Of a stretch of 64,000 bases of DNA, positions 11,288 through 46,665 are shown in pieces. The stretch covers positions 930,001 to 994,000 of the forward strand of contig NC_007575.1 of NCBI RefSeq assembly GCF_000012965.1, read 5' to 3'. The position numbers and the translations under genes were made by a program. Origin of the DNA: Sulfurimonas denitrificans DSM 1251 (lineage in GTDB: Bacteria; Campylobacterota; Campylobacteria; Campylobacterales; Sulfurimonadaceae). The first letter of the stretch is position 1. Each line of letters begins with the position of its first letter. The notes below the pieces were generated by a model. It saw nothing but the letters and a program-made list of their open reading frames with translations, was not told where the DNA came from and made no database searches.

Positions 11288-11385
11288 TATCTAAAAATCT
11301 CTAATTTAACTTAAATTAAGTAAAAAAAAATAATTAATAGATATAATAAATTTTTTCTTAAATAATTTTATATTTGGATTTTAAT

Positions 11386-13932
11386 ATGCCTAAAACATTA
11401 AAAAATTTTATATTTTCAATTAACATCGTTTTGCTCTCGTCCCTCTTTATAGTTGTTTTACTCTTTACCTCATATCTTCATACTAAATTAGCACAAGAAA
11501 ATGCAATAAAACACTCAAATATAGTTTCAAATCAGATATTCTCATCTATGTATCAAGTTATGAAAAAAGGGTGGAGCAGAGAAGATTTAAATGAGTTTAT
11601 GTACTCTATAGAAGAGAATTTTGATGATAGTTACTCTGTTAATATCTATCGTGGAGATAAAATCAAAGAGCTCTTTGGTGAAGTTGAAGAGAAACAAAAA
11701 GATGATCTAGCTGCTTCTGTAATGAAAAGTGGTAAAAAATTTACATCTAGCGATATGGGGAAACTTAGAAATATTTTGCCATTAATTGCAAAAACAGAGT
11801 GCTTAAGCTGTCATGTTAATGCAAAAGAGGGAGATACGCTAGGTGTTATTGATGTTGAGCAGGATTTCGTTGAAATCATAAAAGAGACATTTTTAAATTA
11901 TGTCTATTTTTTCCTTATTGTTCTGCCTATATTTATCTTAGGAGCGTATATTAGCTCTAGATATACTACTTCAAAGATAACTGATTCACTCAAACTCTTT
12001 AACGCAAAAGTGGAGGGAATTAACTCACTTAATGATTTTAAAGAGTTTGATCCTACTGAGATTGACCTTAGATTTGATGAAGTTAATGCAATTATAATTA
12101 ATGTCAATGAACTGGCTAAAAAACTAAGAACAATTGCAGTTGATAAAGACCTCTTAGAGTTTGAGGTACAGCTTTTGGATAAGTTTATAATCACCTCAGA
12201 GGTTGTAAGGGATTGGCGTGATTTTATAAATGAGCTCTTAATTGATATAAATAAAGTTATGCAGACATATACTCTTATGACTATTTTTAGAATTGGAGAC
12301 GATCAGTTTGAAGTTGATATTTTTTGGCATGGAATACCAGATTTAGATGTCAAAGAGAAGTTTGAAGAGTATGTAAGGGTATCGGTTGAGAGTAGCAACC
12401 ACTTTTTAGGATATACAGACTATACAATTCGTCACAACATATCTGAATACAAGATGCATATAGATATAAAAGATTATGAAAAATTTGCGCATAGAACAAA
12501 ATCGTTATTTTTAGATACTCCTAAAATAGGCGGTATAGTTGGGTTGAGTGTCCAATCAGAGATGGCATCAGATCCAATAAAACATATAGTAATTGATAGT
12601 ATTTTGACAACTATGGCAAATCTTGTTGGAAGCGTTAAAGCCATAAATAAATATACAAACGATTTGGAATATTATGCTGCGCATGATCCGCTAACATCTC
12701 TCTTTAACCAGAGAGTTTTTATAGACTTTTTAGAGTATGAGATAAAGCGTGCAGAGTCACATAACTATGAGTTTGCTCTTATGGTTATAGATTGCGATAA
12801 CTTTAAACCGATAAATGATAAATATGGGCATGCTTTTGGAGACCAATTTTTACAAGAGTTCTCAAGAGTTCTTTTTGAGTCAAAAAGAAATGAGGATATT
12901 CTATCTCGTTATGGCGGTGATGAGTTTACTTTGATTTTACCTGAATGCGGTTTGGAATGCGCTCTTGCTGTCGCACATAAAATTGCAAGAGCTATAGAGG
13001 ATTTTAAACTATTGACTGCGGATGGAAACTATACAGGAGTTACTGTCTCTATTGGAATATCTATATATCCAGAACATGCAAAAACTCAAAAAGAGTTATT
13101 TTTAATAGCTGATGGAATGATGTACAAAGCTAAAGAGGATGGCAAAAACAGCATAAGAGTTCCATCAGGCGATGATATTATATCTGTAGTAAAAGAGCAA
13201 AAAGCAAAGAGTGTACTTCTGATGGATGCTGTTGCAAATAATCGTATAGTTCCATATTTTCAACCTATTCAAACCACAGCGAGCGGCAAAAATGAAATTC
13301 ATGAACTTCTTATGAGAATAGAAGTAGATGGAAGGGTTGTATCTGCTTATGAGTTTATAGAGGTTGCTGAGAGCATGAGTATCATAAACCGTATGGATTT
13401 AATGGTTATAGAAAATGCGTTTATTAAAATTAAACAAGAGAATTACAGTGGTATCTTATTTATAAACCTCTCTCCTAAATCTTTGGTTGTTGGCAATTAT
13501 GCAGATGCTATTACTAAGCTTATAAAAGAGTATGATATTTCAAAAGACAATATTGTTTTTGAAATTACTGAGAGAGAGACTGTTAAAAACTTCTCACTTT
13601 TAGAAAAATTTGTAATAAATCTTAAAATGGCTGGTTATAAATTTGCTATTGATGATTTTGGATCTGGATTTTCATCGTTTCACTATATTAAGAAGTTTCC
13701 TATTGATTATCTTAAAATTGATGGTGAGTTTATTATCAATATCAATAAAGATAAAAAAGACAGAGCTTTTGTAAATAGTATCTTAACTCTTGCAAAAGAG
13801 CTAAATGTTAAGACTGTTGCAGAGTATGTTGAGGATGAAGAGATAGTTAAAACACTAAGAGAAATGGGTGTTGATTATCTTCAAGGTTTCCACATAGGAA
13901 GACCGCAAAAGAGCTTTACAATCAGAGATTAA
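11386..13932 (+). CDS. Membrane GGDEF/EAL protein with a periplasmic c-heme motif
   Basis: This 848-residue protein is taken from the ATG at 11386. TM helix 1 is at about residues 8-30. A periplasmic sensor domain follows, with a c-type heme motif CLSCH at 139-143, then TM helix 2 at about 172-192 and a long linker. The GGDEF domain has YGGDEF near 509-514, and the C-terminal EAL-type domain has NLSPKSL, FEITERE, IDDFGSGFSSFHY, KIDGEF and VAEYVEDEE. GGDEF domains make cyclic di-GMP and EAL domains cleave it. The cyclase signature is intact. The EAL signature is ELL here (HELLMRI), with its Glu kept, so phosphodiesterase activity is uncertain. The heme motif suggests redox or gas sensing in the periplasm. 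Confidence 0.9.
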   Translation: MPKTLKNFIFSINIVLLSSLFIVVLLFTSYLHTKLAQENAIKHSNIVSNQIFSSMYQVMKKGWSREDLNEFMYSIEENFDDSYSVNIYRGDKIKELFGEVEEKQKDDLAASVMKSGKKFTSSDMGKLRNILPLIAKTECLSCHVNAKEGDTLGVIDVEQDFVEIIKETFLNYVYFFLIVLPIFILGAYISSRYTTSKITDSLKLFNAKVEGINSLNDFKEFDPTEIDLRFDEVNAIIINVNELAKKLRTIAVDKDLLEFEVQLLDKFIITSEVVRDWRDFINELLIDINKVMQTYTLMTIFRIGDDQFEVDIFWHGIPDLDVKEKFEEYVRVSVESSNHFLGYTDYTIRHNISEYKMHIDIKDYEKFAHRTKSLFLDTPKIGGIVGLSVQSEMASDPIKHIVIDSILTTMANLVGSVKAINKYTNDLEYYAAHDPLTSLFNQRVFIDFLEYEIKRAESHNYEFALMVIDCDNFKPINDKYGHAFGDQFLQEFSRVLFESKRNEDILSRYGGDEFTLILPECGLECALAVAHKIARAIEDFKLLTADGNYTGVTVSIGISIYPEHAKTQKELFLIADGMMYKAKEDGKNSIRVPSGDDIISVVKEQKAKSVLLMDAVANNRIVPYFQPIQTTASGKNEIHELLMRIEVDGRVVSAYEFIEVAESMSIINRMDLMVIENAFIKIKQENYSGILFINLSPKSLVVGNYADAITKLIKEYDISKDNIVFEITERETVKNFSLLEKFVINLKMAGYKFAIDDFGSGFSSFHYIKKFPIDYLKIDGEFIININKDKKDRAFVNSILTLAKELNVKTVAEYVEDEEIVKTLREMGVDYLQGFHIGRPQKSFTIRD

Positions 13933-26334: not shown

Positions 26335-27579
26335 ATGTTTGATATTGATTTACTTGTTGCATTTGCTTTTATGGGACTTCTATTTTTAAGACAGATATCA
26401 ATTATAAAACAGCCAAACAAGATAAACTACGCTCCCTTAATGGTAGGCATTGGCTCTATTAGCGGCACAATCCATTTCATAGTTCATCCAGAAGCCACTC
26501 AATCTTTTCTTGTTTTAAAAGAGAGCCTCTTTCCTATTTTAGTCTCTTTGATTTTATACGTTATTATGAATATTTTGCATCAGACACAACAGGCTCAATA
26601 TGCCAAAGTAGAGGATGAGTCCACAAAAGGTCTCCTAGCTCAGATTACATATCTAAGAGAGTTTAGTGCAGAGTTAGAGAGGAGGATGATTCAAAATCAA
26701 AATGAAGAGAGAGAATCAGAAGATCATCTTAGAGAGAAATTTAAACATGATATAAAGATGCTAGATACAATCCTTGAGAATCAAAACAAATTTTTAGAAA
26801 ATTTTGAACAGATGCGTGATTGGTATAAAAATGTAAGCAAATCGTTTGAAAAATTTACAGAGGTTCAACTCCCTTCCCTTGATAGTGTCGTGCATAAACA
26901 TATAGATATACTCCGCATAGCAGAGCAAGATCACTTTAACAAAGTAAAAACCACACTATCAAAAGCTATAGAGAGTAGAGAGAGCATAAAAAATGAGCTC
27001 GAAGAGCTAAGAGAGAGTTTACATGCAATTAGCACTATCTCTCAAACTATAGCTAAGAGCGTAACAAAGCATACAAATGAGCAGTTATCAGAGGTTATCA
27101 GACCTTTTGAAAAAGAGATTATTTCACTAAAATCACATACCGAGGGGGTAAATACTTCCCTATATGAGAGCGAGAGCAAACTTCACAATATTCAAGAGAG
27201 AAGCGAGCTTATAATGAATCAGATGAATCTCTCTTCTAAAAAGATGCAAGAGCTGCAAAGTCAAAACAGCTCTTTACATGATATATATGCAATGATGAGA
27301 GATTTGATGAGAGATATTGAGATTATAAAGTCCGAATATGTAAAATCACAATCTCAACTTAGTATAATTGTAGATGATTTTAAAGAGATAAAAGAGGATG
27401 ATAGAGCTGCTTATAAAGCGCAGACGGATGATTTTTTATCTAAATTAAATAGCGAAGTAGAGACGATAATGCAAAAGTTAAACACACATAGCACGCAGAC
27501 AGAAGATGTAGCTTCAAATTTAAAATTTTTATCTAAACAGGCTCAGCTTAAAAATAGATACTCTGATTTAGATAGCTAG
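26335..27579 (+). CDS. Membrane-anchored coiled-coil protein, unknown function
   Basis: This 414-residue protein has two or three hydrophobic segments in the first 85 residues (VAFAFMGLLFLRQISI; GIGSISGTIHFIV; LFPILVSLILYVIMNIL). About 330 residues of heptad-like, charged helix rich in Glu, Lys and Gln follow. The architecture resembles RmuC-like or chemoreceptor-type coiled coils, but I see no nuclease or MA-domain motif. It has its own extended -10-like TGCTAGAAT (26297-26305) and a GAGGATAAAG site. Its 3' end overlaps the opposing gene by 12 bases. Confidence 0.75.
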   Translation: MFDIDLLVAFAFMGLLFLRQISIIKQPNKINYAPLMVGIGSISGTIHFIVHPEATQSFLVLKESLFPILVSLILYVIMNILHQTQQAQYAKVEDESTKGLLAQITYLREFSAELERRMIQNQNEERESEDHLREKFKHDIKMLDTILENQNKFLENFEQMRDWYKNVSKSFEKFTEVQLPSLDSVVHKHIDILRIAEQDHFNKVKTTLSKAIESRESIKNELEELRESLHAISTISQTIAKSVTKHTNEQLSEVIRPFEKEIISLKSHTEGVNTSLYESESKLHNIQERSELIMNQMNLSSKKMQELQSQNSSLHDIYAMMRDLMRDIEIIKSEYVKSQSQLSIIVDDFKEIKEDDRAAYKAQTDDFLSKLNSEVETIMQKLNTHSTQTEDVASNLKFLSKQAQLKNRYSDLDS

Positions 27580-31733: not shown

Positions 31734-31872
31734 ACTACATGTAATAATAAATTATTATTTATGGAGTAAGTGTTATAAAATTCATTAATTTCTTAACTAT
31801 TTATTTTTTATTTTAGTTAAGTTTGATATTATATAATAGAGTTAAAAGTAGTTATTTTAAAGGAGGCGTATC

Positions 31873-34800
31873 ATGTCTTTTATTTTTCGTATATTTATTT
31901 TATCTTTGTTGTTTGGCTACTCTTTGCTCTTTGCATCAATAGGAAGTGTTTCACTACTTAAAGGTGAAGCTTCACTAGAGAGAGAGGGAACAGTTTTAGG
32001 TGTAAAAAATGGCATGAATCTTGAGGAGAGAGATAGTATAAAAACTACTAAAGGCTCGCAGATACAGCTTATTTTTACAGATAAAACAGTTATCACTCTA
32101 GGAAGTGAGAGCCATTTTAAAGTAGATGAGTATCTAAGTGAGGGAAGTAACCCTAAAGCAAAGTTTAAATTTAATCAAGGTACTTTTAAAACCATAACTG
32201 GACGCATTGGAAAAAGTGCTCCAGAGAACTTTACGCTTGAAACTAAAACTGCTACCATTGGAATTAGAGGAACTGTCATAGGTGGAAATGTTCCTCAATC
32301 ATCATCAGCACCTGATACTATTATCTGTTTAGGCGGACGAATCACAGCGACATCACTTCAAACGGGAGTTACAGTAAATCTGCCAACTGGAACAGTAACA
32401 GTCGTCCCAGTGAGTGGACCTCCCTCGCCTCCAAGACAGGCAACGCCGCAGGATATAGCACAGTTTAACGAAAGCTTAGGAACGCCACCTCCATCTAATT
32501 CACCTGCGGAGAGTTCAAACTCTCCACAAGATGGCGGCGGTTCATCTGCAGCGCAAAATGGGGCTCCAGCTACGCAAGGTGATGAGGGCGGATTTCAATC
32601 TCCAGCTGGTAATGCTCCAGCAGCAGCACCACAAACATTCTCTCCAACAGCTGCAGCAGCTGCACAGCAGACAAATCAGCAAAATTCAACTCAAGGTGGA
32701 GTTGTTGAAAATTTATCACAAGGGTTAGGTGTGCCTGTAGGGCAGATTCAACAACAAATTGCTTCAAATAATCCAACGCCTCCAACTGTTGTTACCCCTC
32801 CACCGCCAGTTGAGCCAACTCCACCGCCAGTTGTTCCAACACCTCCACCTGTTGAGCCAACTCCACCGCCAGTTATACCTACTACACCACCAGTAGTTAC
32901 TCCTCCATCAAACGGTAGTGGTGGAGGCTATACTCCACCACCTCACCCAGCTTCATATACGACACTATTTTCAAATATGTCTGCTTCAAATGGTGCAAGT
33001 TCAACAGTTCTGTTCCCTGAGAACGTAACAAAAACAATGCTCTTTGATGCAACAAATAGACTATGGGTATCAAGCGATAACGCATATATAGCAACAACAT
33101 CAGTAGATGGAAATTTTAGCTATATTAACAGTGAACTAGCTAATGCTCAAAAAATGTATATTAAATCTCAAGACTATGAAAATCCTGTTTTGTTTAAATC
33201 TTTTCCAAGTGATTCAGGGGCAAGTGGGTATGTAGAGGGTCTTAGTGGATTAAAACCTATCGCTTCTACTTGGCATGAGTTAGTTACAAGTGCTAAGGGT
33301 GTTATGAATCAAAATTTTTCTGATGTTATAAAATATGAGGAAAATAGTCATTACGATACAAGAAAATGGAATTATAATACTAATTTAAAAATCTTTAATG
33401 AGCTTTATTACATTGAAGATGACTGGACATCTATAAATAGCTACGCAGCACTTTATAGCGATATATCAAATAATGATACTATCTATCAAAATTCTTTAAG
33501 TAGCGCCCTGTCGGACTATATGAATGGTGCCAACTTTTACATCCATGGAGTACCAGAAGCCAATCAAAATATTAAAAGCTATGGAACCCTACAAGATGGC
33601 GGAAAATGGTACTTTATTTATAATAATGTCAACAGTGACTTTAATAATACTGTTTCTGTATATGGAACTCTACCTATAACAGACGCTGTAGCTGTATCAT
33701 CTGATAGCAATAGTGTGCCTTTTATGCAAACAACAACAGATTATCCGATTTATATCGTAGATCGCTCTGGATCAAAAGAGATGTACAGCATCAAAAATTT
33801 TGATAGTATCTCAAATGATATGTTTAATTATGTAAATAATCATTTTTTAGAAATAAACACTGATTATGTAACTGTAGATGGGTCTAATATTACTTATACT
33901 CATCTATCTCCAGAATACCAACAAAATGTCTATCTCTTTTATAAGATAGATGATAATGGCACTTTAGTAGAAGATGCAAGAAATGGCAAAATGGTAAATC
34001 CTATAACAGGAAATGTATTACATGTATATACAAATTATCATACACCAACTGTTGATAATGGAACTATGGTTGTTGGAGATTTTGCATTTGGCGTAATTGA
34101 TAATCCGCTTATGAACAATGAGATATTTCCAACGCCAACAGATGTGAATAATACAATATCTTATGGTAACGGTATTTTTTCTAATGATTTAAATATGACT
34201 ACACCTGCAGTTGGTGCTAATTATAGAAAATTAGCTATAGAAAAAGCATTATGGAGTGATAAACCAGTAGATGCAAAGGTTTATGTTTATAGCGATTATG
34301 GTACAAATTTAGCAAATAGAGATTTTGATGAACTATATAACACTGGAACATTTATCAAATTTCCATCAAGCGGAAATGGCATTATGATGGAGAGTTATTT
34401 TGATGTTTTAGAAGAAAAAAGTGGTTCTACCGTTGTAAAAAACTACTTTACAGGCTCCATCACAACAGGAAGAGTTGTTGCTGATGGTACTGACAATAAG
34501 ATTGTTTTCAAACATTTTGAGAGTTTGGGTGGTGTAACAACGTCAGATTCAGTTGATGTAACCAATCATAACTTCTATCTCTTTAATGAAAATGCTCAGT
34601 TTATCAATGCAGATAATGGCGGACTTGATAATAATAAAGCTGGTACAGAAAAATACAACTGGTTAGCACATGAAGAGGTAAATGCAGCTTCGTCAGAAAC
34701 TCTTAATGTTGGACTTATGAAAAAAGTAACTGATAGTAGTGATGTAAATCTTTTTAAAGGCGTTACTGACTACAACACCTCTTTTGCTACAGGAGCTATG

Positions 34801-35619
34801 AAGGGCTTTATCATAGGTGCGGACACTAGTACTACGCCAAATATTTGGATGGGAGATATTACTACTTTTAATATAAATCCAATTGAAGGAGGGGAATTGA
34901 ATATTACAGTAGCAGCAAATAACTTAGGAATTACAACGCCTATCTCTATGGCTGACCTAAGTCAAACAAATAGCGCTGAAGCCATCCCTAGCTCCTCTTA
35001 TCTTGGAGAAGATATGCAAGCTATGATTATTGAGAGTAAAACCGTAAATGGAAAAACTTATGACTTTGCTATGGCTACACTTCCTGATAAGGTAGAGGCA
35101 ACAGGTAAGTATAGCTATCAAAATGATTACACTTCATGGGGATATTGGGTTGCAACTGAAAAAGCACCTACAGCAGGCGGTTCTTACGCTCAAGGGTACT
35201 GGGTTGCAGGATATGAAACTCCAGTTAGTTCAATACCAACAAGTACAACATATAACTACAGCGGAAATATTTTAGGTACCATAACACATGGAACAATGGC
35301 TAGTCCGATATTGCTAGACGAAACTAACTCTTTTAAAGCAGCTATTCAATTTGGAGCAACTAATCCTATAACTATTACAGAGATGAAATTTAATACTAAA
35401 GATTTAGGTGCTGTAACTGGAATTGGAACAGCAACAACACCATCAAATTCTATAATTGACAACACTTTTTCAGGGACACATACTAATGGAACTACAGCAT
35501 TAGACTTTAAAGGAAAATTCTTCGGACCAGCTGCTGAGGCTATCGGCGGTGCATGGAGTGGAACATTTAATAATGCAGCCTTGAGCGGAACAGGCGTATT
35601 TAAAGGGGTTAAAGAATGA
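31873..35619 (+). CDS. Large secreted FecR-domain protein with polyproline linker
   Basis: This 1248-residue exported protein starts at a strong AAAGGAGG site. A signal peptide (about 1-22) is followed by a FecR domain (about 23-150: SVSLLKGEASLEREG, ITLGSESHFKVDEY, FKTITGRIGK, TKTATIGIRGTVIGG). A low-complexity Pro/Gln/Ala segment (about 175-360) contains repeated PTPPPV units. The remaining ~890 residues are rich in Asn, Thr, Ser and Gly with almost no Cys, typical of surface-exposed passengers; its C-terminus (KGKFFGPAAEAIGGAWSG) resembles the transferrin-binding-protein-like beta-barrel of surface lipoproteins. It overlaps the next gene, a TPR/outer-membrane protein, by 4 bases, suggesting that protein helps display it. 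Function unknown. Confidence 0.85.
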   Translation: MSFIFRIFILSLLFGYSLLFASIGSVSLLKGEASLEREGTVLGVKNGMNLEERDSIKTTKGSQIQLIFTDKTVITLGSESHFKVDEYLSEGSNPKAKFKFNQGTFKTITGRIGKSAPENFTLETKTATIGIRGTVIGGNVPQSSSAPDTIICLGGRITATSLQTGVTVNLPTGTVTVVPVSGPPSPPRQATPQDIAQFNESLGTPPPSNSPAESSNSPQDGGGSSAAQNGAPATQGDEGGFQSPAGNAPAAAPQTFSPTAAAAAQQTNQQNSTQGGVVENLSQGLGVPVGQIQQQIASNNPTPPTVVTPPPPVEPTPPPVVPTPPPVEPTPPPVIPTTPPVVTPPSNGSGGGYTPPPHPASYTTLFSNMSASNGASSTVLFPENVTKTMLFDATNRLWVSSDNAYIATTSVDGNFSYINSELANAQKMYIKSQDYENPVLFKSFPSDSGASGYVEGLSGLKPIASTWHELVTSAKGVMNQNFSDVIKYEENSHYDTRKWNYNTNLKIFNELYYIEDDWTSINSYAALYSDISNNDTIYQNSLSSALSDYMNGANFYIHGVPEANQNIKSYGTLQDGGKWYFIYNNVNSDFNNTVSVYGTLPITDAVAVSSDSNSVPFMQTTTDYPIYIVDRSGSKEMYSIKNFDSISNDMFNYVNNHFLEINTDYVTVDGSNITYTHLSPEYQQNVYLFYKIDDNGTLVEDARNGKMVNPITGNVLHVYTNYHTPTVDNGTMVVGDFAFGVIDNPLMNNEIFPTPTDVNNTISYGNGIFSNDLNMTTPAVGANYRKLAIEKALWSDKPVDAKVYVYSDYGTNLANRDFDELYNTGTFIKFPSSGNGIMMESYFDVLEEKSGSTVVKNYFTGSITTGRVVADGTDNKIVFKHFESLGGVTTSDSVDVTNHNFYLFNENAQFINADNGGLDNNKAGTEKYNWLAHEEVNAASSETLNVGLMKKVTDSSDVNLFKGVTDYNTSFATGAMKGFIIGADTSTTPNIWMGDITTFNINPIEGGELNITVAANNLGITTPISMADLSQTNSAEAIPSSSYLGEDMQAMIIESKTVNGKTYDFAMATLPDKVEATGKYSYQNDYTSWGYWVATEKAPTAGGSYAQGYWVAGYETPVSSIPTSTTYNYSGNILGTITHGTMASPILLDETNSFKAAIQFGATNPITITEMKFNTKDLGAVTGIGTATTPSNSIIDNTFSGTHTNGTTALDFKGKFFGPAAEAIGGAWSGTFNNAALSGTGVFKGVKE
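32772..32910 (+). repeat. Polyproline-coding tandem repeat inside the FecR-domain gene
   Basis: The stretch encodes about ten Pro-rich units of the type PTPPPVEP / PTPPPVVP. At DNA level an exact 24-base block occurs at 32809-32832 and again at 32851-32874, a 42-base period (14 residues). Such repeats are prone to copy-number change in frame. The peptide is probably an extended linker between the FecR and passenger parts. Confidence 0.8.
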
Positions 35620-36911
35620 AATTTTCATATGTCACAGCTATATTACTACTATCTATAAACCTCTTCGCAGATGAGAGCAGTTACAAAGATGCCATACAGA
35701 GTTATAACGCAAAAGAGTTTGCTAAGGCGTATCCTGTTTTTGAGGAGCTGAGTCTAAAGTCGCCAGCAAATGCGGAGTTAAACTTCTTTTTAGGTCGCTC
35801 TGCACTAGAGCTAAAGAGATATGATGAGGCACTTACAGCTTTTGATAGGGTGCTTATGCTAAATCCCTCGCACACAAGAACGCACATGGAGTTGGCACGT
35901 CTTTATTATGAGACAGGGCAGCTTGAGCTCTCTCAAGGAGAGTTGGATTTGGTGTTAAAAGAGAACCTTCCTCAAAATATTCGTGATGTAGCACTCGCTT
36001 TTAAAACAAGAATCAGTGAGCAGATGAAGCGTCACACTTTTGGCGGTGCGTTTATAGTCGGTATGGGATATGACAGCAATGCGAACAATGATATTGGGCG
36101 CAAGGAGTTCATTATTCCACTCTTTAATATGCCTATTGAGGGTAATGAAAAAGTGTCTGATACAAATCTTTTTGCAACTTTTGTTCTAAATCACAGCTAT
36201 GATTTTGGAGATAGAAAAGGTTGGATGCTTGAGAGCTCATTTGTAGCATATACAAAACTATATAAAGAGTATGGTGAAAATGACCTCTCACTTTTCTCGC
36301 TAAGTGTGGCTCCAACTTGGAGTGAAAATAGCTATAAACTCTCATTTCCACTCACATATGACCGTATATTTTTAGATAACGATGGATATCTATATAATTT
36401 AAGTTCAGGCATAAGAGCAACTTACATGTTAAGTTCAATCTCTTTTCTTGAGGGTGGATATACATACAAAAGAGGCTACTATGATGAGGATAAAACTCAA
36501 GATAGCAACAGCCACACAATTAGTGCCTCTTACAAAAGAGCAATTGGTGAAGACCCTATTTTGTTCTCTCTAAATACGAGCTATGTGCAAACCTCTGAGG
36601 TAAATAGTGGCAGAACTGATGTTGAGAGCAGCGGCTGGAGAGTTGGAGGTGAGATAGCCAAGATGTTTAAAAATGGTGTAAGAACATCTATCGGTTATAC
36701 AAGAAATGAAACGGATTATGAGAAATTTGACCCACTCTTTCAAGCAAAGAGATCGGATGAACGTCATGAGTATGAGTTTGGTTTGGGCTATAGCCTCAGT
36801 AACAGCATTATGTTAAATGCAACGCTCTCTTATGTAGAAAATAACTCAAATCAAGATCCGTTTAATTATGACAAAATTACAGCAATAACAAATGCAATAA
36901 TAAGTTTTTAA
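35616..36911 (+). CDS. TPR plus outer-membrane beta-barrel protein (SLAM/DUF560-like)
   Basis: This 431-residue exported protein has a signal peptide (1-18). TPR-type helices follow at about 20-130 (AYPVFEELSLKSPANAELNFFLGRSALEL, ALTAFDRVLMLNPSH, MELARLYYETGQLE). A region of alternating beta strands then runs to the C-terminal aromatic residue (NAIISF), the pattern of an outer-membrane barrel. GGAFIVGMGYDSNANNDIG begins the barrel. The layout matches surface lipoprotein assembly modulator (SLAM, DUF560) proteins, which move surface proteins across the outer membrane. Its substrate would be the large protein encoded just upstream with a 4-base overlap. Confidence 0.8.
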   Translation: MKFSYVTAILLLSINLFADESSYKDAIQSYNAKEFAKAYPVFEELSLKSPANAELNFFLGRSALELKRYDEALTAFDRVLMLNPSHTRTHMELARLYYETGQLELSQGELDLVLKENLPQNIRDVALAFKTRISEQMKRHTFGGAFIVGMGYDSNANNDIGRKEFIIPLFNMPIEGNEKVSDTNLFATFVLNHSYDFGDRKGWMLESSFVAYTKLYKEYGENDLSLFSLSVAPTWSENSYKLSFPLTYDRIFLDNDGYLYNLSSGIRATYMLSSISFLEGGYTYKRGYYDEDKTQDSNSHTISASYKRAIGEDPILFSLNTSYVQTSEVNSGRTDVESSGWRVGGEIAKMFKNGVRTSIGYTRNETDYEKFDPLFQAKRSDERHEYEFGLGYSLSNSIMLNATLSYVENNSNQDPFNYDKITAITNAIISF

Positions 36912-36915
36912 TCTT

Positions 36916-39132
36916 ATGAAAAAATCCTTAGCTCAGCTCTTTGTTGCTCTGCTTATAGCTTTTATGAGTACTTTGGCTTACATGTACACATCTGAATTTT
37001 ATCTTCCTTTTGAAAATAAGATAAAAGATTTGATGTTTAAAGCCAGAGGCGAGATTGTAGGCGATAAAGAGATAATCATAATTGATATAGATGAGAAAAG
37101 CCTAAAAGAGCTAGGGCAGTGGCCATGGAGCAGGGATGTTGTCTCTAAACTTTTGCAAAATTTAGCAGAGTATGAGGTTGGTATAGTTGGGCTTGATATA
37201 GTTTTTGCAGAGCCTGATAACAGCTCACCAAAAAAGGTTTTTCAAAAACTAGGACTCTCGACTCAAGGGGTTGTGGATTATGATGCTCTTTTAGCTGAGA
37301 CTATAGCGCAGACACCTACTATAGTTGGTTATGTTTTTGCTCTCTCAAACGATGGAATCGCTCCAGAGTCATCCCCAAAATCAAACGCTATCATAGTTGA
37401 GCAAAATCGTCCAAAGAGCTCATCTCTAGTAAAGCCTTATCGCACTATTTTAAACATTGAAGCGATTCAAGAGAGCGCTTATTCAAGTGGCTATTTTAAT
37501 ACTATTCCAGACAATGATGGCGTTGTCCGCTCTATACCGCTTGTTATGGAATATGATGGAATACTCTATCCATCTCTTAGTTTAGAGATGGTGCGTATTA
37601 TGCTAGATGAGAAAAAAATCACAATCGTATATGATGATAATGGAGCCTCACATGTAGAGCTTGGTGAGACTATGATACCTACAGATTTTTTTGCTCGCAT
37701 GCAGATTAACTACAGAGGTAAACAAAATAGTTATCGCTATATCTCTGCTGTTGATGTTTATAATAAAACTGAAGATGCTTCTCATATAGCGGGGAAAATT
37801 GCACTTCTTGGAACTTCTGCTGCGGGGCTTATGGATTTGAGAAGTACACCATTTGATAGTGTATTTGCTGGAGTTGAAGTACATGCGAATGCGATTGACA
37901 ATATTATAAATGCAGACTTCATAGCTAAACCTATCTGGAGTGTTGGTGTTGATATGGCATCATTTAGCATTTTGGCACTGCTTACTTTTGCTATTTTACT
38001 ACTTCCCTCAGCTGTGCTTAGTTTTATCTCTCTTGTTTTTATAAATGCTATTATTATAGGAGTTCACTACTATTTTATGGTGTATGAGGGAGCTATTCTT
38101 CATACGTTTCTTCTTCTTGTGAGCGTAAATGCACTCTTTGTTCTAGGTCAAGCAATCAACTACTTTTTGGAAATAAGACAAAAAGAGATGATAAAGGGCA
38201 AATTTGCAAGTAAAGTAAGTTCGGCTGTTATGGATGATTTGCTCTCTGTAGAGGGGGATATATTTGCAGGAAAGGAGAGAGAGATTTCCATCTTTTTCTC
38301 TGATGTGAGAGGTTTTACAAACCTCTCAGAAGCTATGGGAGACCCACGAAGTTTAATTCATCTTATGAATGCTTATATGGACCCTATGACGGATATTGTT
38401 ATAAAATCAAAAGGAACTGTTGATAAATTTATAGGTGATGCTATTATGGCATACTGGAATGCTCCAAATGAGGTTGAAAATCATGCAGATGTAGCTGTAT
38501 CTGCGGCGCTAGACCAACTCCATGCCTTAAGAGAGTTAAATGAGCAGATACGATTAAATCCAGAGTTTAAAAACGCAGTGCTAATGTCGGATAAAAAAGG
38601 GATTCCTATCATCGATATTGGTATTGGGATAAATACGGGGGTAGCTATTGTTGGAGAGATGGGTTCTAGTAGCAGAAGTGATTATACGGTTATAGGCGAC
38701 CCAATAAATCTCGGCTCTCGCCTTGAATCACTCTGTAAATACTACTCTTCAAAACTAAATATCTCAAACTTTACAAAAGAGCAACTAAAAGGTAGTTATA
38801 TCTTTCGCTTTTTAGATTTAGTGACTGTAAAGGGTAAGAGTGTTCCCATAGAGATTTGGCAGATTCATGATTATGATGACGCTTTAGAGACTCCTCTATA
38901 TAATGTGACAAAAGAGGAGCTAGAAGAGGAGCTAAAAATCTATCATCATGCTATTGCTCTTTATAAAGATACTAAATTTAGTGAGGCACTAGAAATATTT
39001 GAAACACTAGATGCAAACGAGAATAAAACAAATAAAACAATCTATAGCATTTATATAGAGAGATGTCATCACTATATAGAGATGCCACCAATCAACTTTA
39101 ATGGTGTGTTCGAACACACAAGCAAGGGATAA
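36916..39132 (+). CDS. CHASE2-domain adenylate/guanylate cyclase
   Basis: This 738-residue membrane protein has an N-terminal TM helix, a periplasmic CHASE2 domain (about 35-330, with IIIIDIDEKSLKELGQWPWSRDV and PDNDGVVRSIPLVMEYDG) and three TM helices at about 340-420. A class III cyclase domain follows at about 455-640: FFSDVRGFTNLSEAMG (metal Asp), GTVDKFIGDAIMAYW (Lys and second Asp) and SDYTVIGDPINLGSRLE. The Lys favours ATP as substrate, hence cAMP. It follows the TPR/barrel gene by 4 bases, and its stop precedes the metallo-hydrolase/HD-GYP gene by 1 base, so all four genes look like one operon. Confidence 0.92.
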   Translation: MKKSLAQLFVALLIAFMSTLAYMYTSEFYLPFENKIKDLMFKARGEIVGDKEIIIIDIDEKSLKELGQWPWSRDVVSKLLQNLAEYEVGIVGLDIVFAEPDNSSPKKVFQKLGLSTQGVVDYDALLAETIAQTPTIVGYVFALSNDGIAPESSPKSNAIIVEQNRPKSSSLVKPYRTILNIEAIQESAYSSGYFNTIPDNDGVVRSIPLVMEYDGILYPSLSLEMVRIMLDEKKITIVYDDNGASHVELGETMIPTDFFARMQINYRGKQNSYRYISAVDVYNKTEDASHIAGKIALLGTSAAGLMDLRSTPFDSVFAGVEVHANAIDNIINADFIAKPIWSVGVDMASFSILALLTFAILLLPSAVLSFISLVFINAIIIGVHYYFMVYEGAILHTFLLLVSVNALFVLGQAINYFLEIRQKEMIKGKFASKVSSAVMDDLLSVEGDIFAGKEREISIFFSDVRGFTNLSEAMGDPRSLIHLMNAYMDPMTDIVIKSKGTVDKFIGDAIMAYWNAPNEVENHADVAVSAALDQLHALRELNEQIRLNPEFKNAVLMSDKKGIPIIDIGIGINTGVAIVGEMGSSSRSDYTVIGDPINLGSRLESLCKYYSSKLNISNFTKEQLKGSYIFRFLDLVTVKGKSVPIEIWQIHDYDDALETPLYNVTKEELEEELKIYHHAIALYKDTKFSEALEIFETLDANENKTNKTIYSIYIERCHHYIEMPPINFNGVFEHTSKG

Positions 39133-39133
39133 C

Positions 39134-41524
39134 ATGGATACAATAAAGGTACTAGGAGCACAAGGCGGCAGAAGCAAAGACTCCTTTACAACATCTATTA
39201 TGGTTACAAAAAATACAGTTATTGATGCTGGAAATATTATGCAAGCACTTGATAGGGATGCAAAAAATATAAATAAAATCTTCTTCTCGCACTCCCATCT
39301 TGATCATATAGTAGATAGTGCTTTTTTGATAGATAACAGTTTTGCCACAAGAGAGGAACCTCTTTATCTATATGGACTTCCACAAACCATAAAAGCATTA
39401 AAAAAGCATCTCTTTAACTCTGAAATTTGGCCAGATTTTAGTGAAATAAATCTAATAAACACTAAAACCCCCTCTGTTGTCTATGTAGAGTTGGAGCTCT
39501 ATAAAAAGTATGAGCTAGAAGAGGGAGTCTCTCTAACTCCCCTGGAGGCAAATCATACTGTAGAGTGCTGTGGTTATCTCATAGAGGGTAAAAAAGGCTC
39601 GATTCTCTTCTCGGGAGACACTTTTAAAAACCCTAAACTGTGGGATATTATAAATAGTAATGAGTCTATAAAAGCTCTTATAATCGATGTCTCTTTTCCA
39701 AATAAACTTACTAAAATCGCACAACATAGTAAACATTTGACCCCACACTTTTTAAGAGAAGAGCTAGAGTTGCTAAAACGCAAAGATGTTAAGATTTATA
39801 TAAATCATCTTAAACCTTTCTACCATGAAGAGATAATAGAAGAACTTTTTGAGATTGGAATTTCTAGAGATAGAGTTTTAAATGATTCTGAGGAAATTTG
39901 TTTTAAAAACGGTCTTATTAAGAGAGTCTCTATGCAATACACAACTGAGCAGAAGATACAAAAACTAAATAAAATAGGCACAGCGCTCTCAGCTGAGACT
40001 AACATAGATGCTCTTTTGGAGATTATAGTAACAGAAGCTAAGATACTCTCTAATGCGGATGCTGGAACACTTTATATTTTAGAAGATAAACATCTACACT
40101 TTAAAGTAGCTCAAACAGACTCTTTAGGTATAAAAATGGGCGGAATAAGCGGAGCTATAACATGGCCACCACTTCCATTATATCTTCAAGATTCTACACC
40201 AAACAATAAAATGGTGGCAGCTACATGTGCGCTTAGCGATATAGTTATAAATATTCCAGATGTTTATGAAGCTGAAGGATTCTCCTTTGATGGGACTAGA
40301 AAATTTGATGAGGGAACTGGTTATCGCTCAAAATCGATGCTAGTTATTCCATTAAAAAATCATGAGTCTGAAATAATAGGAGTTCTACAACTTTTAAATA
40401 AGTATGATGATAACAATGAAACTATCGCTTTTGACAAAGAAGATGAAGAGCTGACTCTATCTTTAGCATCACAAGCCGCAATTGCTATTACAAATACAAC
40501 ACTTATCCAAGGACTTGAAACTCTTCTTGAAGCATTTTTGCAAAGTATTATTTTTGCTATAGGCAAAAAATCTCCATATACCGCTGGACATATAGAGCGG
40601 ATGGTTAAGTTAACAGTTATGATAGCTGAGGCAATCGATAAAGACAAAGGTGTATTTAGTGCCAAGAGTTTTAGTGCACAAGAGCTAAAACAGATAAATT
40701 TTGCAGCACTTATGCACGATATAGGCAAGCTTGCAACTCCAGAACAAGTTGTAGATAAATCTACGAAACTTGAAACTATTTTTGATCGCATAGAAGTTGT
40801 TAAAGGTCGTATTGAAATTATTAAAAAGGCTCTTGAGATAGAACTTTTAAATCAAAAAATAACACTTTTACAGAGTGGAAAAACTTTACATGTAGAGCTT
40901 GAGAGTGAATTTAGTAAAAAAACTGATTTGCTCGATAGTTACTTTGAAGTAATCCAAAAGAGCAACAGAGGCACAGAGTTTACAAACGATGAGCAGATTG
41001 CAATTATACAAAATATAGCAAGTCAAAATTGGGAGATAGATGGCAAAAGTTATCTCATCCTAACGGAAAATGAAGCGTATAATTTAAGTGTACAAAAGGG
41101 AACACTAACATCACAAGAAAGAGCTATTATCAATGAGCATGCAAAGATAAGCATCGATATTTTAAATAAGCTCCCTTTCCCTAAAAAGTACAAAGAGATT
41201 CCACAAATCTCTGGAAATCACCATGAAAAGATAAATGGAAAAGGGTATCCACTAGGGTTAAGTGGCGATGAGATAAGTTTTGAGGCTAGAATTTTGGCAG
41301 TGGCTGATGTATTTGAAGCTCTAACAGCAAGTGACCGCCCATACAAGAAAGGAAATCCACTCTCAAGCGCTATGAAAATTCTCTACTTTATGGCAAAAGA
41401 TGATGATTTAGATAGAGATATAGTTAAGTTTTTCTACAACTCAGGACTATATCTCCAATACGCAAAAAAACTACTCCCCAAAGAGAGCATAGACGAGGTT
41501 ACAACGGACTTTAGTTCGCTGTAA
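39134..41524 (+). CDS. Metallo-beta-lactamase fold + GAF + HD-GYP signalling protein
   Basis: This 796-residue protein starts at the ATG at 39134 behind AAGGGAT; a longer frame reaching back into the cyclase gene is not needed. Residues 1-270 form a metallo-hydrolase of class II cyclic-nucleotide phosphodiesterase type: FFSHSHLDHIVDSAF (H53xHxDH58), EANHTVECCGYLI, ILFSGDTF and YINHLKPF. Residues about 290-455 form a GAF domain. From about 460 there is an HD-GYP-like domain with MHDIGKLATP, GNHHEKINGKGYPLGL and LAVADVFEALTASDRPYK, the type that cleaves cyclic di-GMP. So one polypeptide may degrade cAMP and c-di-GMP. It is encoded 1 base after a cAMP-type cyclase, pointing to a local cyclic-nucleotide circuit. 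Confidence 0.88.
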   Translation: MDTIKVLGAQGGRSKDSFTTSIMVTKNTVIDAGNIMQALDRDAKNINKIFFSHSHLDHIVDSAFLIDNSFATREEPLYLYGLPQTIKALKKHLFNSEIWPDFSEINLINTKTPSVVYVELELYKKYELEEGVSLTPLEANHTVECCGYLIEGKKGSILFSGDTFKNPKLWDIINSNESIKALIIDVSFPNKLTKIAQHSKHLTPHFLREELELLKRKDVKIYINHLKPFYHEEIIEELFEIGISRDRVLNDSEEICFKNGLIKRVSMQYTTEQKIQKLNKIGTALSAETNIDALLEIIVTEAKILSNADAGTLYILEDKHLHFKVAQTDSLGIKMGGISGAITWPPLPLYLQDSTPNNKMVAATCALSDIVINIPDVYEAEGFSFDGTRKFDEGTGYRSKSMLVIPLKNHESEIIGVLQLLNKYDDNNETIAFDKEDEELTLSLASQAAIAITNTTLIQGLETLLEAFLQSIIFAIGKKSPYTAGHIERMVKLTVMIAEAIDKDKGVFSAKSFSAQELKQINFAALMHDIGKLATPEQVVDKSTKLETIFDRIEVVKGRIEIIKKALEIELLNQKITLLQSGKTLHVELESEFSKKTDLLDSYFEVIQKSNRGTEFTNDEQIAIIQNIASQNWEIDGKSYLILTENEAYNLSVQKGTLTSQERAIINEHAKISIDILNKLPFPKKYKEIPQISGNHHEKINGKGYPLGLSGDEISFEARILAVADVFEALTASDRPYKKGNPLSSAMKILYFMAKDDDLDRDIVKFFYNSGLYLQYAKKLLPKESIDEVTTDFSSL

Positions 41525-43558: not shown

Positions 43559-44983
43559 ATGATGTTTGAATACGCAGTCGTTGGCTCTGGAATAGGCGGT
43601 AGCTCCATTGCATCTTACTTGAACTCTAAGAAAAAAGATGTTGCACTATTTGAAAAAGAGCCATATCTTGGAGGGTGTAGCTCAACTTTTAGACATAAAA
43701 ATTTTAACTATAACACAGGTGCTACAACTCTTAGCGGGTATGAAGATGGATTTGTTGTAAAAGAGATGTTTGACTCTATTGGTTTTAGTCCAAAACTTAT
43801 ACAAACAGATCCAACTATTGTAGTTATTCAAAATAAAAAAGCAACACCACGCTATAAAGATTTTGAGAAGTTTTTAAACGTCTTAGAGACAAACTATCCT
43901 CATCCAAAAAATAGAGAGTTTTGGGCTCTGATACATAAAATAAATAGCGATTTTTATAAGCACAATGGACACTACTACTCAAATAAAAATCTATTTTCAA
44001 AAATTTGCTCATTAGCTAGCTTTACTCCATTAGGCTTATCGTTTTTTAAATATTTAGCAGTAAGTGCATCTCATTTTATAGATGATTTTTTTGGTGGCAT
44101 TGATGAAGAGTATCTGCAATTTTTGGAGTCTCAAATTCTCATAGTAGCCCAAGCTCCAGCAAAAGAGATAAATTTTCTAACAGCAGCACTCTCTCTTGGT
44201 TACACTTTTAATGTTAACCACTATGTAGTTGGCGGTTTTAGCCGTCTATTTGATGATATGACTAAAAATATAAAAAATATTTATAGAGATAGTGAGATAC
44301 TAAGCATCGAAAAAAAGAGCGATAGTTTTGAACTTTATACAAAAGATGAAATTTTTAGGGCTAAAAAAGTGATTTTAAACTCCACAGTTTATGATAGTGC
44401 AAAGCTCTTTAGTGATGCCAAAATTAAAGAGTACTATAAATATTACGAAAAACTAAACAACAATCAAAGCTCCTTTATGCTCTACTTAACCATAAAGAGT
44501 GAGCAAAAATTTCACCACCATTATCAACTTATTCAAAAAGAGAAGTTTGCAAATACTCTCTCTTGCGCCCTTTTTGTGTCGTTCTCAGATATAGATGATT
44601 TGAATCTCGCTCCTAGTGGACACTATAGCATCACGGCTTCTATTCATACAAATGTTCAATTTTGGCAGAATCCACAAACATATAAAGCACAAAAAAAAGA
44701 GCTTAAAAATCTGCTTTTAGATACAATTTTAAATCAACTCAGCATTAAAAAAGAGGAAGTTATTCAAAGCTTTGCAGCAACTCCAAAGAGTTTTAATCGC
44801 TATCTAAATCGTTCACAACTTGGAGGAAATGCAATCAGTATGGAAAATTTTCTACCATTTCTACCATCAAACGATACTAAAATAAATGGACTTTACAATG
44901 TCGGAGATAGTGTTTATGCAGCGCAAGGATGGCCTGGCGTTATGCTTGGTGTAAAAAACTTACAAAGACTCTTACATGTATAG
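43559..44983 (+). CDS. CrtI/CrtISO-type FAD-dependent oxidoreductase
   Basis: This 474-residue flavoprotein has an N-terminal dinucleotide-binding motif VVGSGIGGSSIASYLNSKKKDVALFE written here only in part (VVGSGIGGSS, residues 7-16), followed by KEPYLGGCSSTFRHKNFNYNTG. The C-terminal FAD motif is GLYNVGDSVYAAQGWPGVMLG. This is the phytoene desaturase/carotenoid isomerase/all-trans-retinol saturase group. No carotenoid genes are adjacent, so the substrate is unknown. Its stop overlaps the next start by 8 bases, coupling it to the LytS-type kinase. An alternative start is 43562 (second Met). Confidence 0.85.
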   Translation: MMFEYAVVGSGIGGSSIASYLNSKKKDVALFEKEPYLGGCSSTFRHKNFNYNTGATTLSGYEDGFVVKEMFDSIGFSPKLIQTDPTIVVIQNKKATPRYKDFEKFLNVLETNYPHPKNREFWALIHKINSDFYKHNGHYYSNKNLFSKICSLASFTPLGLSFFKYLAVSASHFIDDFFGGIDEEYLQFLESQILIVAQAPAKEINFLTAALSLGYTFNVNHYVVGGFSRLFDDMTKNIKNIYRDSEILSIEKKSDSFELYTKDEIFRAKKVILNSTVYDSAKLFSDAKIKEYYKYYEKLNNNQSSFMLYLTIKSEQKFHHHYQLIQKEKFANTLSCALFVSFSDIDDLNLAPSGHYSITASIHTNVQFWQNPQTYKAQKKELKNLLLDTILNQLSIKKEEVIQSFAATPKSFNRYLNRSQLGGNAISMENFLPFLPSNDTKINGLYNVGDSVYAAQGWPGVMLGVKNLQRLLHV

Positions 44984-45986
44984 TGTAGCACTCCACATAA
45001 AAACAGAAGATTGGTTATATATCTTAGCCATAGGGATTGTTTTTGCAATGGTACTCTCAAGCTTAGGTTATGGGCTTTTTGAGTTCTCACTTCTTGATGG
45101 TGCTATTTTTGGAGTTATTTTAGGTTTTAGCATAACTATTTTTTCACTTATTTTTGTATCAAATATGAACAAGATAATATTGCCAAATGTAAAAGAGTTT
45201 TACTGGCTGCCGCTTTCTATTTTATTCTCTTTTTTGTCTGGATTTTTGGGAACTTATTTTGGTGTATATGTAGCCCAAAATATAAATATTGAAATTATCC
45301 CAGCATTTAAAAACACTCTTAGCACTATCTCTGTTGCAATTGGGATTTTGACATATATTATTGGTGCACTTTTGTATAGATTTGTAAAAATGAGAAATCA
45401 AAAAGATGTGATAGACAAAGAGTATGTTCAAAGTCGCCTTCGCTCACTTGAGACGCAACTAAATCCTCATTTTTTATTTAACGCACTAAACTCAATCGCC
45501 GAGTTAATTCATCAAGACCCACAAAAAGCGGAGATGGCGGTTTTAAAACTATCTTCATTCTTGAGAAATAGTATGAACGAAACAGCACTTCTTAATTTAG
45601 GAGATGAGATTAGTAATCTTAGTGACTATGTAGAACTTGAAAATATTCGCTTTTCTCAAAAAATAAAACTACATGTACAAAGAGATATACCTGCATGTAA
45701 AGTGCCAAAATTTTCTCTTCAGTTACTTGTTGAAAATGCCATAAAACACGGCTTTAAAAACTTAAATGTAGATCTTAATATTTGGATATCTTTTGATGAG
45801 AGGACAAAAACACTCATCGTTAGAAATGATGGAGATAAGATGAAATCTACAAAATTTGGAGTAGGGCTTAACAACCTAAAACAGCGTATAGAGCTGTTGT
45901 GCGGAGGAAGTATTAAAGTTGCAAATAGTGAGGAAGTGACTTTTCTTATAATTTTAGGAGATTGCAGTGAAAATATTAATCGTTGA
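44976..45986 (+). CDS. LytS-type membrane sensor histidine kinase
   Basis: This 336-residue protein has four hydrophobic helices in the first 140 residues. A His_kinase (PF06580-type) domain follows with the phosphoacceptor motif ETQLNPHFLFNALNSIAELIH near residue 165. A short HATPase domain has LQLLVENAIKHGF and GVGLNNLKQRIELL. The membrane part lacks a recognised ligand domain. It overlaps the LytTR response regulator gene by 20 bases, so the two form one two-component system. Confidence 0.92.
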   Translation: MYSVALHIKTEDWLYILAIGIVFAMVLSSLGYGLFEFSLLDGAIFGVILGFSITIFSLIFVSNMNKIILPNVKEFYWLPLSILFSFLSGFLGTYFGVYVAQNINIEIIPAFKNTLSTISVAIGILTYIIGALLYRFVKMRNQKDVIDKEYVQSRLRSLETQLNPHFLFNALNSIAELIHQDPQKAEMAVLKLSSFLRNSMNETALLNLGDEISNLSDYVELENIRFSQKIKLHVQRDIPACKVPKFSLQLLVENAIKHGFKNLNVDLNIWISFDERTKTLIVRNDGDKMKSTKFGVGLNNLKQRIELLCGGSIKVANSEEVTFLIILGDCSENINR

Positions 45987-46665
45987 TGATGAAGAGTTAG
46001 CTAGAAAAAGGTTGATTCGTATGCTTTTAACTCTGAAATATACAGAGGTACAAGAGGCTTGGGATGCAGATGAAGCTAGAGAGATTTTTAAGAAAGATAG
46101 CTTTGATATAGTTTTTTTAGATATAAATATGCCTCGTGTAAGTGGCATAGAGTTAGGTTATGAGTTGAAATATTTGAACCCAGATGTTGGCATAATATTT
46201 CAAACAGCCTACGAGGAGCATGCTCTGAAGGCTTTTGATATTGGTGCGGTTGCCTATCTTGTTAAACCTTATAGCATCGAGCAGCTGCAAGGCTCTATTA
46301 GACGCATAAAAGCTCCTTTAATCCAAAAGAGAGAGTTTAAAATTTTAAGTAAATTTGGAGATAGCTATCTGCTTTTAAAGCCTCAAGAGATTTATTATGT
46401 CAAAGCTGATTTATCTGAGGTAATGTTGCGAACTAGCAAGGGGTTTTCTTATTATGGAGAAAAGATTTCTAATCTACATGTAAAGCTGGAGAGTTTTGGT
46501 TTTATTCAGATTCACCGTTCATATCTTATAAACAGCAATGAAATCAAAGATATACAAACCATAGAGCAGAGCAAACTGCGTTTTTCATTTAAAAATAGCT
46601 CTGATACCATAGAGTCTAGTAAAGATGGAGCAAAAGCTTTTAGAGAAAAATTTGCCTTTTTATAG
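45967..46665 (+). CDS. LytTR-family response regulator
   Basis: This 232-residue protein has an N-terminal receiver domain (ILIVDDEELARKR, phosphorylated Asp in VFLDINMPRVSG, Lys in AYLVKPY). A C-terminal LytTR DNA-binding domain follows (IYYVKADLSEVMLRTSKGF, FIQIHRSYLINSNEI). It would receive phosphate from the overlapping LytS-type kinase and bind direct-repeat promoter sites. The stop is followed after 10 bases by the start of a truncated thiD. Confidence 0.93.
   Translation: MKILIVDDEELARKRLIRMLLTLKYTEVQEAWDADEAREIFKKDSFDIVFLDINMPRVSGIELGYELKYLNPDVGIIFQTAYEEHALKAFDIGAVAYLVKPYSIEQLQGSIRRIKAPLIQKREFKILSKFGDSYLLLKPQEIYYVKADLSEVMLRTSKGFSYYGEKISNLHVKLESFGFIQIHRSYLINSNEIKDIQTIEQSKLRFSFKNSSDTIESSKDGAKAFREKFAFL

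Follow-up and report, generated by a model that had tools for sequence, protein, structure and literature searches.

A gene cluster encoding a cyclase, a cyclic AMP (cAMP) phosphodiesterase, a FecR outer-membrane protein and a TPR protein has been reported in Campylobacterota (PMC9239204, mBio 2022), where it was taken as one likely pathway and horizontal transfer was proposed. The same four genes are located at positions 31873-41524 of the window analysed here, a stretch of 64,000 nucleotides (positions 930,001 to 994,000 of NC_007575.1) from the single-contig, 2,201,561-base genome of Sulfurimonas denitrificans DSM 1251. This bacterium is a sulfur-oxidising member of the Campylobacterota. 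The novelty implied by a preliminary description of the stretch does not extend to the cluster itself; however, in the main text of PMC9239204 the TPR protein is not identified as a barrel of the type XI secretion system (T11SS), and neither a TbpB-type barrel in the FecR protein nor the GAF/HD-GYP half of the phosphodiesterase is mentioned. What is new is therefore not the cluster but its interpretation as a putative relay coupled to secretion. We propose, giving it an even chance of being correct, that a FecR/CHASE2-gated cAMP relay acts on the hydrolysis of cyclic di-GMP (c-di-GMP), is reset by its own cAMP phosphodiesterase and is tied to a T11SS pair.

T11SS (Slam) proteins combine TPRs with a barrel of 14 strands, or 16 in PgaA, and their cargo ends in an eight-strand TbpB-type barrel that constitutes its targeting part (PMC8406197). 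As portrayed in the main texts of PMC8406197 and PMC12282271, such systems with TbpBBD cargo resemble the studied locus in pairing a TPR/14-strand outer-membrane protein with an adjacent cargo bearing a C-terminal TbpB-type barrel. In contrast to them, the candidate cargo described here starts with a FecR domain, and a cyclase and a putative dual phosphodiesterase share the putative operon; neither main text uses the words FecR, CHASE2, cyclase or Campylobacter.

Coupling of cAMP to c-di-GMP turnover also has described counterparts. Tlr0485 of Thermosynechococcus, a cAMP-activated protein according to a review (PMC8846402), combines GAF and HD-GYP domains to this effect, and a GAF or cNMP domain is reported to provide a similar link in Bd1971 (EAL) and Lcd1 (GGDEF). 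The fourth protein of the cluster differs from all three in carrying a fused MBL domain resembling class II phosphodiesterases and in having a cyclase encoded next door, and its cAMP binding is a prediction. FecR and CHASE2 likewise occur together in the BiofilmReg operon of Burkholderia contaminans, which has a biofilm phenotype and in which a FecR-LysM envelope protein adjoins a CHASE2 histidine kinase (PMC5192318); there the output is a histidine kinase and response regulator, without T11SS, cyclase or phosphodiesterase. In Sinorhizobium meliloti, the outer-membrane barrel NsrA is reported to feed the CHASE2 cyclases CyaD1, CyaD2 and CyaK (cited in PMC13001267); unlike the arrangement proposed here, cAMP acts in that case via the CRP-family regulator Clr, and the relevant passages of PMC13001267 describe no dual phosphodiesterase.

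Organisation and conservation of the gene set

Four tightly spaced, co-oriented genes had been recognised in the preliminary description, and the open reading frames (ORFs) proved to be as stated there: they lie on the + strand, comprise 1248, 431, 738 and 807 codons (genes 1 to 4; Table 1) and have junctions of -4, +4 and +1 base, given a gene 4 start at 39134. Genes 1 and 2 overlap by 4 bases (35616-35619) and a gap of 4 bases separates genes 2 and 3 (36911/36916). The ORF listed for gene 4 begins at 39101, which would create a 32-base overlap with gene 3. We rejected this start because homologues start at or after codon 12 of the listed ORF and because the ATG at 39134, one base past the gene 3 stop, is preceded by AAGGGA; the listed overlap is probably a start-codon artefact. 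A promoter scan returned sites no more frequently than in shuffled sequences. Terminator-like matches exceeded those in shuffles but were mostly intragenic, and neither result was used as evidence.

A cyclase search covered 249 genomes of the order, and 40 neighbourhoods were read together with the studied locus, giving 41 CHASE2-cyclase loci. Within 7.5 kb of the cyclase, FecR genes were found at 27 loci, Slam-like genes at 23, MBL genes at 23 and GAF-HD-GYP genes at 24; FecR, Slam and MBL were all present at 17 of the 41, across 7 families. Nearly all loci differ in gene order and strand, and divergent as well as convergent layouts occur. Because order and orientation are shuffled while the set persists, it is selection that maintains the linkage, and not the plain inheritance of a single operon. 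The functional linkage of the four genes is supported by comparative evidence. Conservation of the four-gene order, which the preliminary description had put forward as a check, was borne out for the set, recurring in at least seven families, but not for order and orientation, which vary and are the same as here in Thiomicrospira sp. WB1. This gammaproteobacterium (locus L083) carries all four genes, a probable case of horizontal transfer. The same set was also recovered by a named scan in relatives belonging to Sulfurospirillum, Arcobacter and Nautiliales.

The full-length MBL-GAF-HD-GYP protein shows a comparable association. Among the 46 genomes that encode it, 44 also carry a CHASE2 cyclase, adjacent in 35, and the two exceptions are drafts 79-81% complete; Fisher p values for this co-occurrence (e.g. 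5e-28) are overstated, since the genomes are related. Furthermore, GAF-HD-GYP is still linked to the cyclase where the MBL enzyme is a separate gene.

The predicted exporter and its candidate cargo

Gene 2 matched SlipAM (PF04575) with 28.8 bits against a cut-off of 22 (1.1e-6), and among 20 neighbouring orthologues searched at an E value of 0.01 SlipAM was detected in 9 and TPR_Slam in 12. An AlphaFold model made from 20 orthologues, with a predicted local distance difference test score (pLDDT) of 91.6, has TPR helices leading into a barrel of 14 strands, which is the topology of T11SS proteins and agrees with the SLAM-like TPR/barrel assignment made previously. The nearest solved barrels were CymA and OmpG (Z 21-23) and the nearest TPR folds the type III chaperones SycD/PcrH (Z 18-19). 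No solved Slam structure was among the fold matches, which we do not count as contrary evidence. Comparative evidence supports gene 2 as a predicted T11SS/Slam-type exporter. In a relative (L159:6606-11430), a Slam gene adjoins that of a barrel-bearing protein of 1165 amino acids (aa), which was judged VWA-like by eye, and there is no cyclase gene in the vicinity; T11SSs in this bacterial order thus occur without the relay too.

After a signal peptide, the gene 1 product has the FecR domain already noted in the preliminary description, then a Pro-rich linker and a long central region, and its C-terminal part matches a TbpB_B_D barrel. The barrel had been missed in that description and was found by Pfam. 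It also matched NF041636 (slam_lipo), the NCBIfam model of Slam-dependent surface lipoproteins, at 2.4e-7, below the cut-off of that model. In the AlphaFold model of gene 1, which has an overall pLDDT of 38 and fails in the central region, the C-terminus forms about 8 strands with moderate confidence (pLDDT 50-80). Gene 1 thus has, as T11SS cargo does, a C-terminal TbpB-type eight-strand barrel and a position adjoining a Slam gene. A lipobox Cys, as in lipoprotein-type T11SS cargo, was not found near the N-terminus, and the product would be, if a T11SS cargo at all, of the soluble type. Relatives of the central region occur only in G202/L158 and L094; the relative in G202 matches at 66% over this region, the contig stops just beyond it, and no cyclase was found in the G202 draft genome.

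A barrel profile was grown iteratively from gene 1 and the very loci then counted. Among FecR proteins that have a Slam within 12 kb it matched 35 of 47, whereas among those that have none it matched 0 of 18. The presence of the barrel solely beside a Slam is expected if the cargo depends on its translocon. Two tandem barrel-bearing genes stand beside one Slam at L033, L034 and L084, with FecR cargos at the first two, which suggests cargo duplication and diversification.

Predicted synthesis, sensing and hydrolysis of cAMP

The genome encodes a single Guanylate_cyc-domain protein, the product of gene 3. In class III cyclases, residues such as those present here specify adenylate cyclase. Since the metal ligands (D463/D508), the adenine-specifying residues (K504/T591) and the Asn-Arg pair (N598 and R602) are all in place, gene 3 is predicted to be an active adenylate cyclase, as its earlier description as a CHASE2 cAMP-type cyclase implied. 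The catalytic residues are kept in 68-70 of 70 aligned sequences, and K504, T591 and both metal Asp residues in all 70.

CHASE2 is accompanied by FecR also outside the cluster. In the same order, CHASE2-HD-GYP fusions have a FecR gene (139-158 aa) one or two genes away at all 10 loci examined, and the gene between them was OmpA-family in both loci tested. These compact FecR/(OmpA-family)/CHASE2-HD-GYP operons (L165-L174; e.g. L168:5371-8301) seem to be a version of the gene 1/gene 3 sensor that acts on c-di-GMP directly. Because FecR accompanies CHASE2 whatever the output, the two can be regarded as a probable sensing pair, in which FecR is likely to be what CHASE2 interacts with in the periplasm; and since CHASE2 is elsewhere fused to HD-GYP, the gene 3 cyclase looks as if a cAMP relay had been placed between an input and an output that are otherwise unchanged. 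An apparent FecR-CHASE2-cyclase fusion at L093:11804-15070, a Rosetta-stone candidate, was discarded as an assembly artefact, its ORF passing, inside a repeat, through a stretch of N and a change of frame.

Gene 4 was found, as claimed before, to join in one polypeptide an MBL domain (HSHLDH) similar to class II cAMP phosphodiesterases and an HD-GYP domain, both with their metal ligands. The MBL region has PDEase_II homology, the HxHLDH motif and the ligands expected of PDE1/CpdP-type enzymes; among solved structures it is closest to yeast PDE1 (4ojv, 2e-12), and the ligands are kept in 61-63 of 63 fused homologues. This enzyme, stand-alone or fused to GAF-HD, is kept beside the EF-Tu gene at L177, L178, L181 and L184; two of these loci, L177 and L181, belong to genomes that lack class III cyclases altogether. 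In the HD-GYP domain, an insertion of roughly 100 residues separates the HD and HHE motifs; the metal ligands are present in 63 of 63 fused homologues and GYP is mostly retained. The best solved relative was the c-di-GMP enzyme PmGH (4mcw) in a profile-based search and the cGAMP-specific V-cGAP3 (5z7c) in a single-sequence query.

The GAF domain of gene 4 is likely to be the cAMP-sensing joint, as judged from its sequence relationships. Its best solved relative is CyaB2 of Anabaena (1ykd, 4.7e-17), a cAMP-binding GAF pair, followed by PDE5 and PDE2. NKFDE is intact, and across the fused family the Lys position carries K/R in 63 of 63 members and the Asp is kept in 62; by comparison, Ala replaces the Lys in 12 of 27 related GAF-HD-GYP proteins that carry no fused MBL. 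The domains are arranged as MBL-GAF-HD in gene 4, as GAF-HD-MBL at L162/L164 and as separate genes at L163/L176. Having been joined repeatedly in different orders at cyclase loci, MBL, GAF and HD-GYP may share a common task.

Table 1. Features of the four-gene cluster and related loci (window positions; loci in relatives are given with their own prefix)
Feature	Position	Strand	Basis or remark
Shine-Dalgarno of gene 1, AAGGAGG	31860..31866	+	read directly; precedes ATG 31873
Gene 1, 1248-aa exported protein, candidate soluble T11SS cargo	31873..35619	+	ORF, Pfam, NCBIfam
FecR domain, gene 1 residues 54-145	32032..32307	+	PF04773, 2.9e-10
Central region, gene 1 residues 356-1080	32938..35112	+	AlphaFold pLDDT about 30
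TbpB_B_D barrel, gene 1 residues 1121-1244	35233..35604	+	PF01298, 4.8e-7, above cut-off
Gene 2, predicted T11SS/Slam-type outer-membrane protein, TPR + 14-strand barrel	35616..36911	+	PF04575, predicted structure
Gene 3, predicted CHASE2 class III adenylate cyclase, 738 aa	36916..39132	+	Pfam, residue alignment
CHASE2 domain, gene 3 residues 22-358	36979..37989	+	PF05226, 2.3e-62
Class III cyclase domain of gene 3	38275..38865	+	Guanylate_cyc, 2.2e-19; D463, D508, K504, T591, N598, R602
Shine-Dalgarno for preferred gene 4 start, AAGGGA	39124..39129	+	precedes ATG 39134
Gene 4, MBL-GAF-HD-GYP putative dual phosphodiesterase	39134..41524	+	ORF as listed starts 39101
MBL/PDEase_II domain, HSHLDH	39194..39778	+	PF02112, 1.3e-15; all metal ligands
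GAF domain; NKFDE N433-K434...F444...D448-E449 at 40397-40447	40004..40489	+	Pfam GAF, 1.6e-13
HD-GYP domain, HHEKINGKGYP, all metal ligands	40568..41419	+	PF13487 (HD_5), 3.9e-38
Candidate adhesins beside cyclase cluster in relatives	L048:2514-9506, L053:205-5538, L059:8339-13567, L077:2535-5495, L032:8010-9959		RCC1/laminin-G, PKD, Ig-like, cadherin/FG-GAP or RTX

Proposed mechanism and its alternatives

According to the proposed relay, the gene 1 product would enter the periplasm and then be carried across the outer membrane by gene 2 through its TbpB-type barrel, following the rules of the family. In the periplasm, the CHASE2 domain of gene 3 would sense either the FecR domain or the export state of gene 1, as the recurrent pairing of FecR with CHASE2 suggests, and would set the rate of cAMP synthesis by the predicted adenylate cyclase. 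Binding of cAMP to the GAF domain of gene 4 would then change c-di-GMP hydrolysis by the HD-GYP domain, and the MBL domain would destroy cAMP and so reset the switch. In this scheme cAMP would mainly be a short-range wire into the c-di-GMP network, not acting via classical CRP; with 39 GGDEF proteins encoded in the genome, c-di-GMP is a plausible downstream currency. The output would probably be display at the surface or attachment. Large proteins encoded near the cluster in relatives contain Ig-like, cadherin, PKD, laminin-G, FG-GAP, RTX or RCC1 domains, and such adhesin-like neighbours fit surface attachment, though indirectly. A more specific form of the proposal, to which we attach rather low confidence, is a self-reporting T11SS pair, in which export of the FecR cargo, or its engagement at the surface, would be signalled through CHASE2 and cAMP to the GAF domain without CRP, constituting a private wire from the outer membrane to c-di-GMP.

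Several observations weigh against the relay. No partner was found near 7 of the 41 cyclase loci, and 12 FecR proteins near a Slam lack a detectable barrel. A close relative of the MBL enzyme occurs alone in complete or near-complete cyclase-free genomes, several times beside tuf, and may therefore act on other substrates besides cAMP. The Asp of HHExxDGxGYP is replaced by Asn (N712 in gene 4) in 55 of 63 fused homologues. NKFDE-like motifs are also found in GAF domains away from cyclase loci, with K/R in 8 of 19 controls, and a non-CRP cAMP receptor elsewhere in the genome is possible.

The last two points would suit an alternative that we consider doubtful, in which the cAMP signal goes elsewhere, to a divergent CRP-like or other receptor, while the GAF domain binds another ligand or dimerises and gene 4 merely ends the signal. 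Five cNMP_binding proteins in the genome are conceivable receivers, but the phosphate-cassette Arg of CRP was found in none of the five, of which the strongest, with Tyr-Pro in place of the Arg-Ser of the CRP cassette, was judged by alignment and the other four by eye. GAF similarity is no proof of binding and can mislead, since the GAF domain of Dcsbis resembles cAMP/cGMP-binding GAFs yet binds neither; the nearest solved relatives of the gene 4 GAF do, however, bind cyclic nucleotides. A gene 4 that only terminated the signal would also fit poorly with HD-GYP metal ligands retained throughout the fused homologues and with a GAF-HD-GYP linked to the cyclase even when the MBL is a separate gene. 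It is less easy to credit that the two hydrolases act on other nucleotides altogether, the MBL on another phosphodiester and the HD-GYP on 3'3'-cyclic GMP-AMP (3'3'-cGAMP) or similar, which we regard as improbable: the maintenance of the MBL alone in cyclase-free genomes and the single-sequence match to V-cGAP3 would agree with it, but the presence of the cyclase alongside the full-length enzyme in 44 of 46 genomes, the PDE1 and profile-based PmGH relationships and the abundance of GGDEF proteins argue for cAMP and c-di-GMP.

At the input side, gene 1 might not be a secreted cargo, and might instead form with the TPR-barrel protein a fixed outer-membrane sensor whose barrel is read by CHASE2, as with NsrA. 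Signalling from an outer-membrane barrel to CHASE2, as reported in S. meliloti, and the FecR partners without a barrel are compatible with this arrangement, which is nonetheless improbable in our view as well, given that the TbpB-type barrel of gene 1 scores above the Pfam cut-off, that this barrel strictly co-occurs with Slam and that the T11SS literature makes it the targeting part of cargo (PMC8406197). Finally, the genes may merely have co-travelled in a horizontally moved block without joint function. Their patchy distribution, including the same order in Thiomicrospira, and the horizontal transfer proposed in the main text of PMC9239204 would be explained, but we find this very hard to reconcile with a set that stays together through many reshuffles of order and orientation, with the same domains being fused in different ways, and with FecR-CHASE2 pairing outside the cluster. 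Taken as a whole, the earlier interpretation of the locus is partly supported.

Elsewhere in the window, a GGDEF-EAL protein is encoded at 11374-13932, about 18 kb upstream of the cluster. A 414-aa ORF at 26335-27579 had as its sole Pfam match a weak, sub-cut-off one (ATG17-like). The region 44976-46665 holds a gene for a His_kinase-family sensor that overlaps the next gene (45967-46665), with an amine oxidase-like gene lying upstream.

If correct, the proposed relay would couple a T11SS to second-messenger signalling and would give a role to FecR-CHASE2 pairs. It would also suggest what cAMP does in free-living Campylobacterota, which possess a cyclase but in the present genome show no CRP-like protein bearing the cAMP-binding Arg, and gene 4 would offer one enzyme with which cross-talk between cAMP and c-di-GMP could be measured in vitro.

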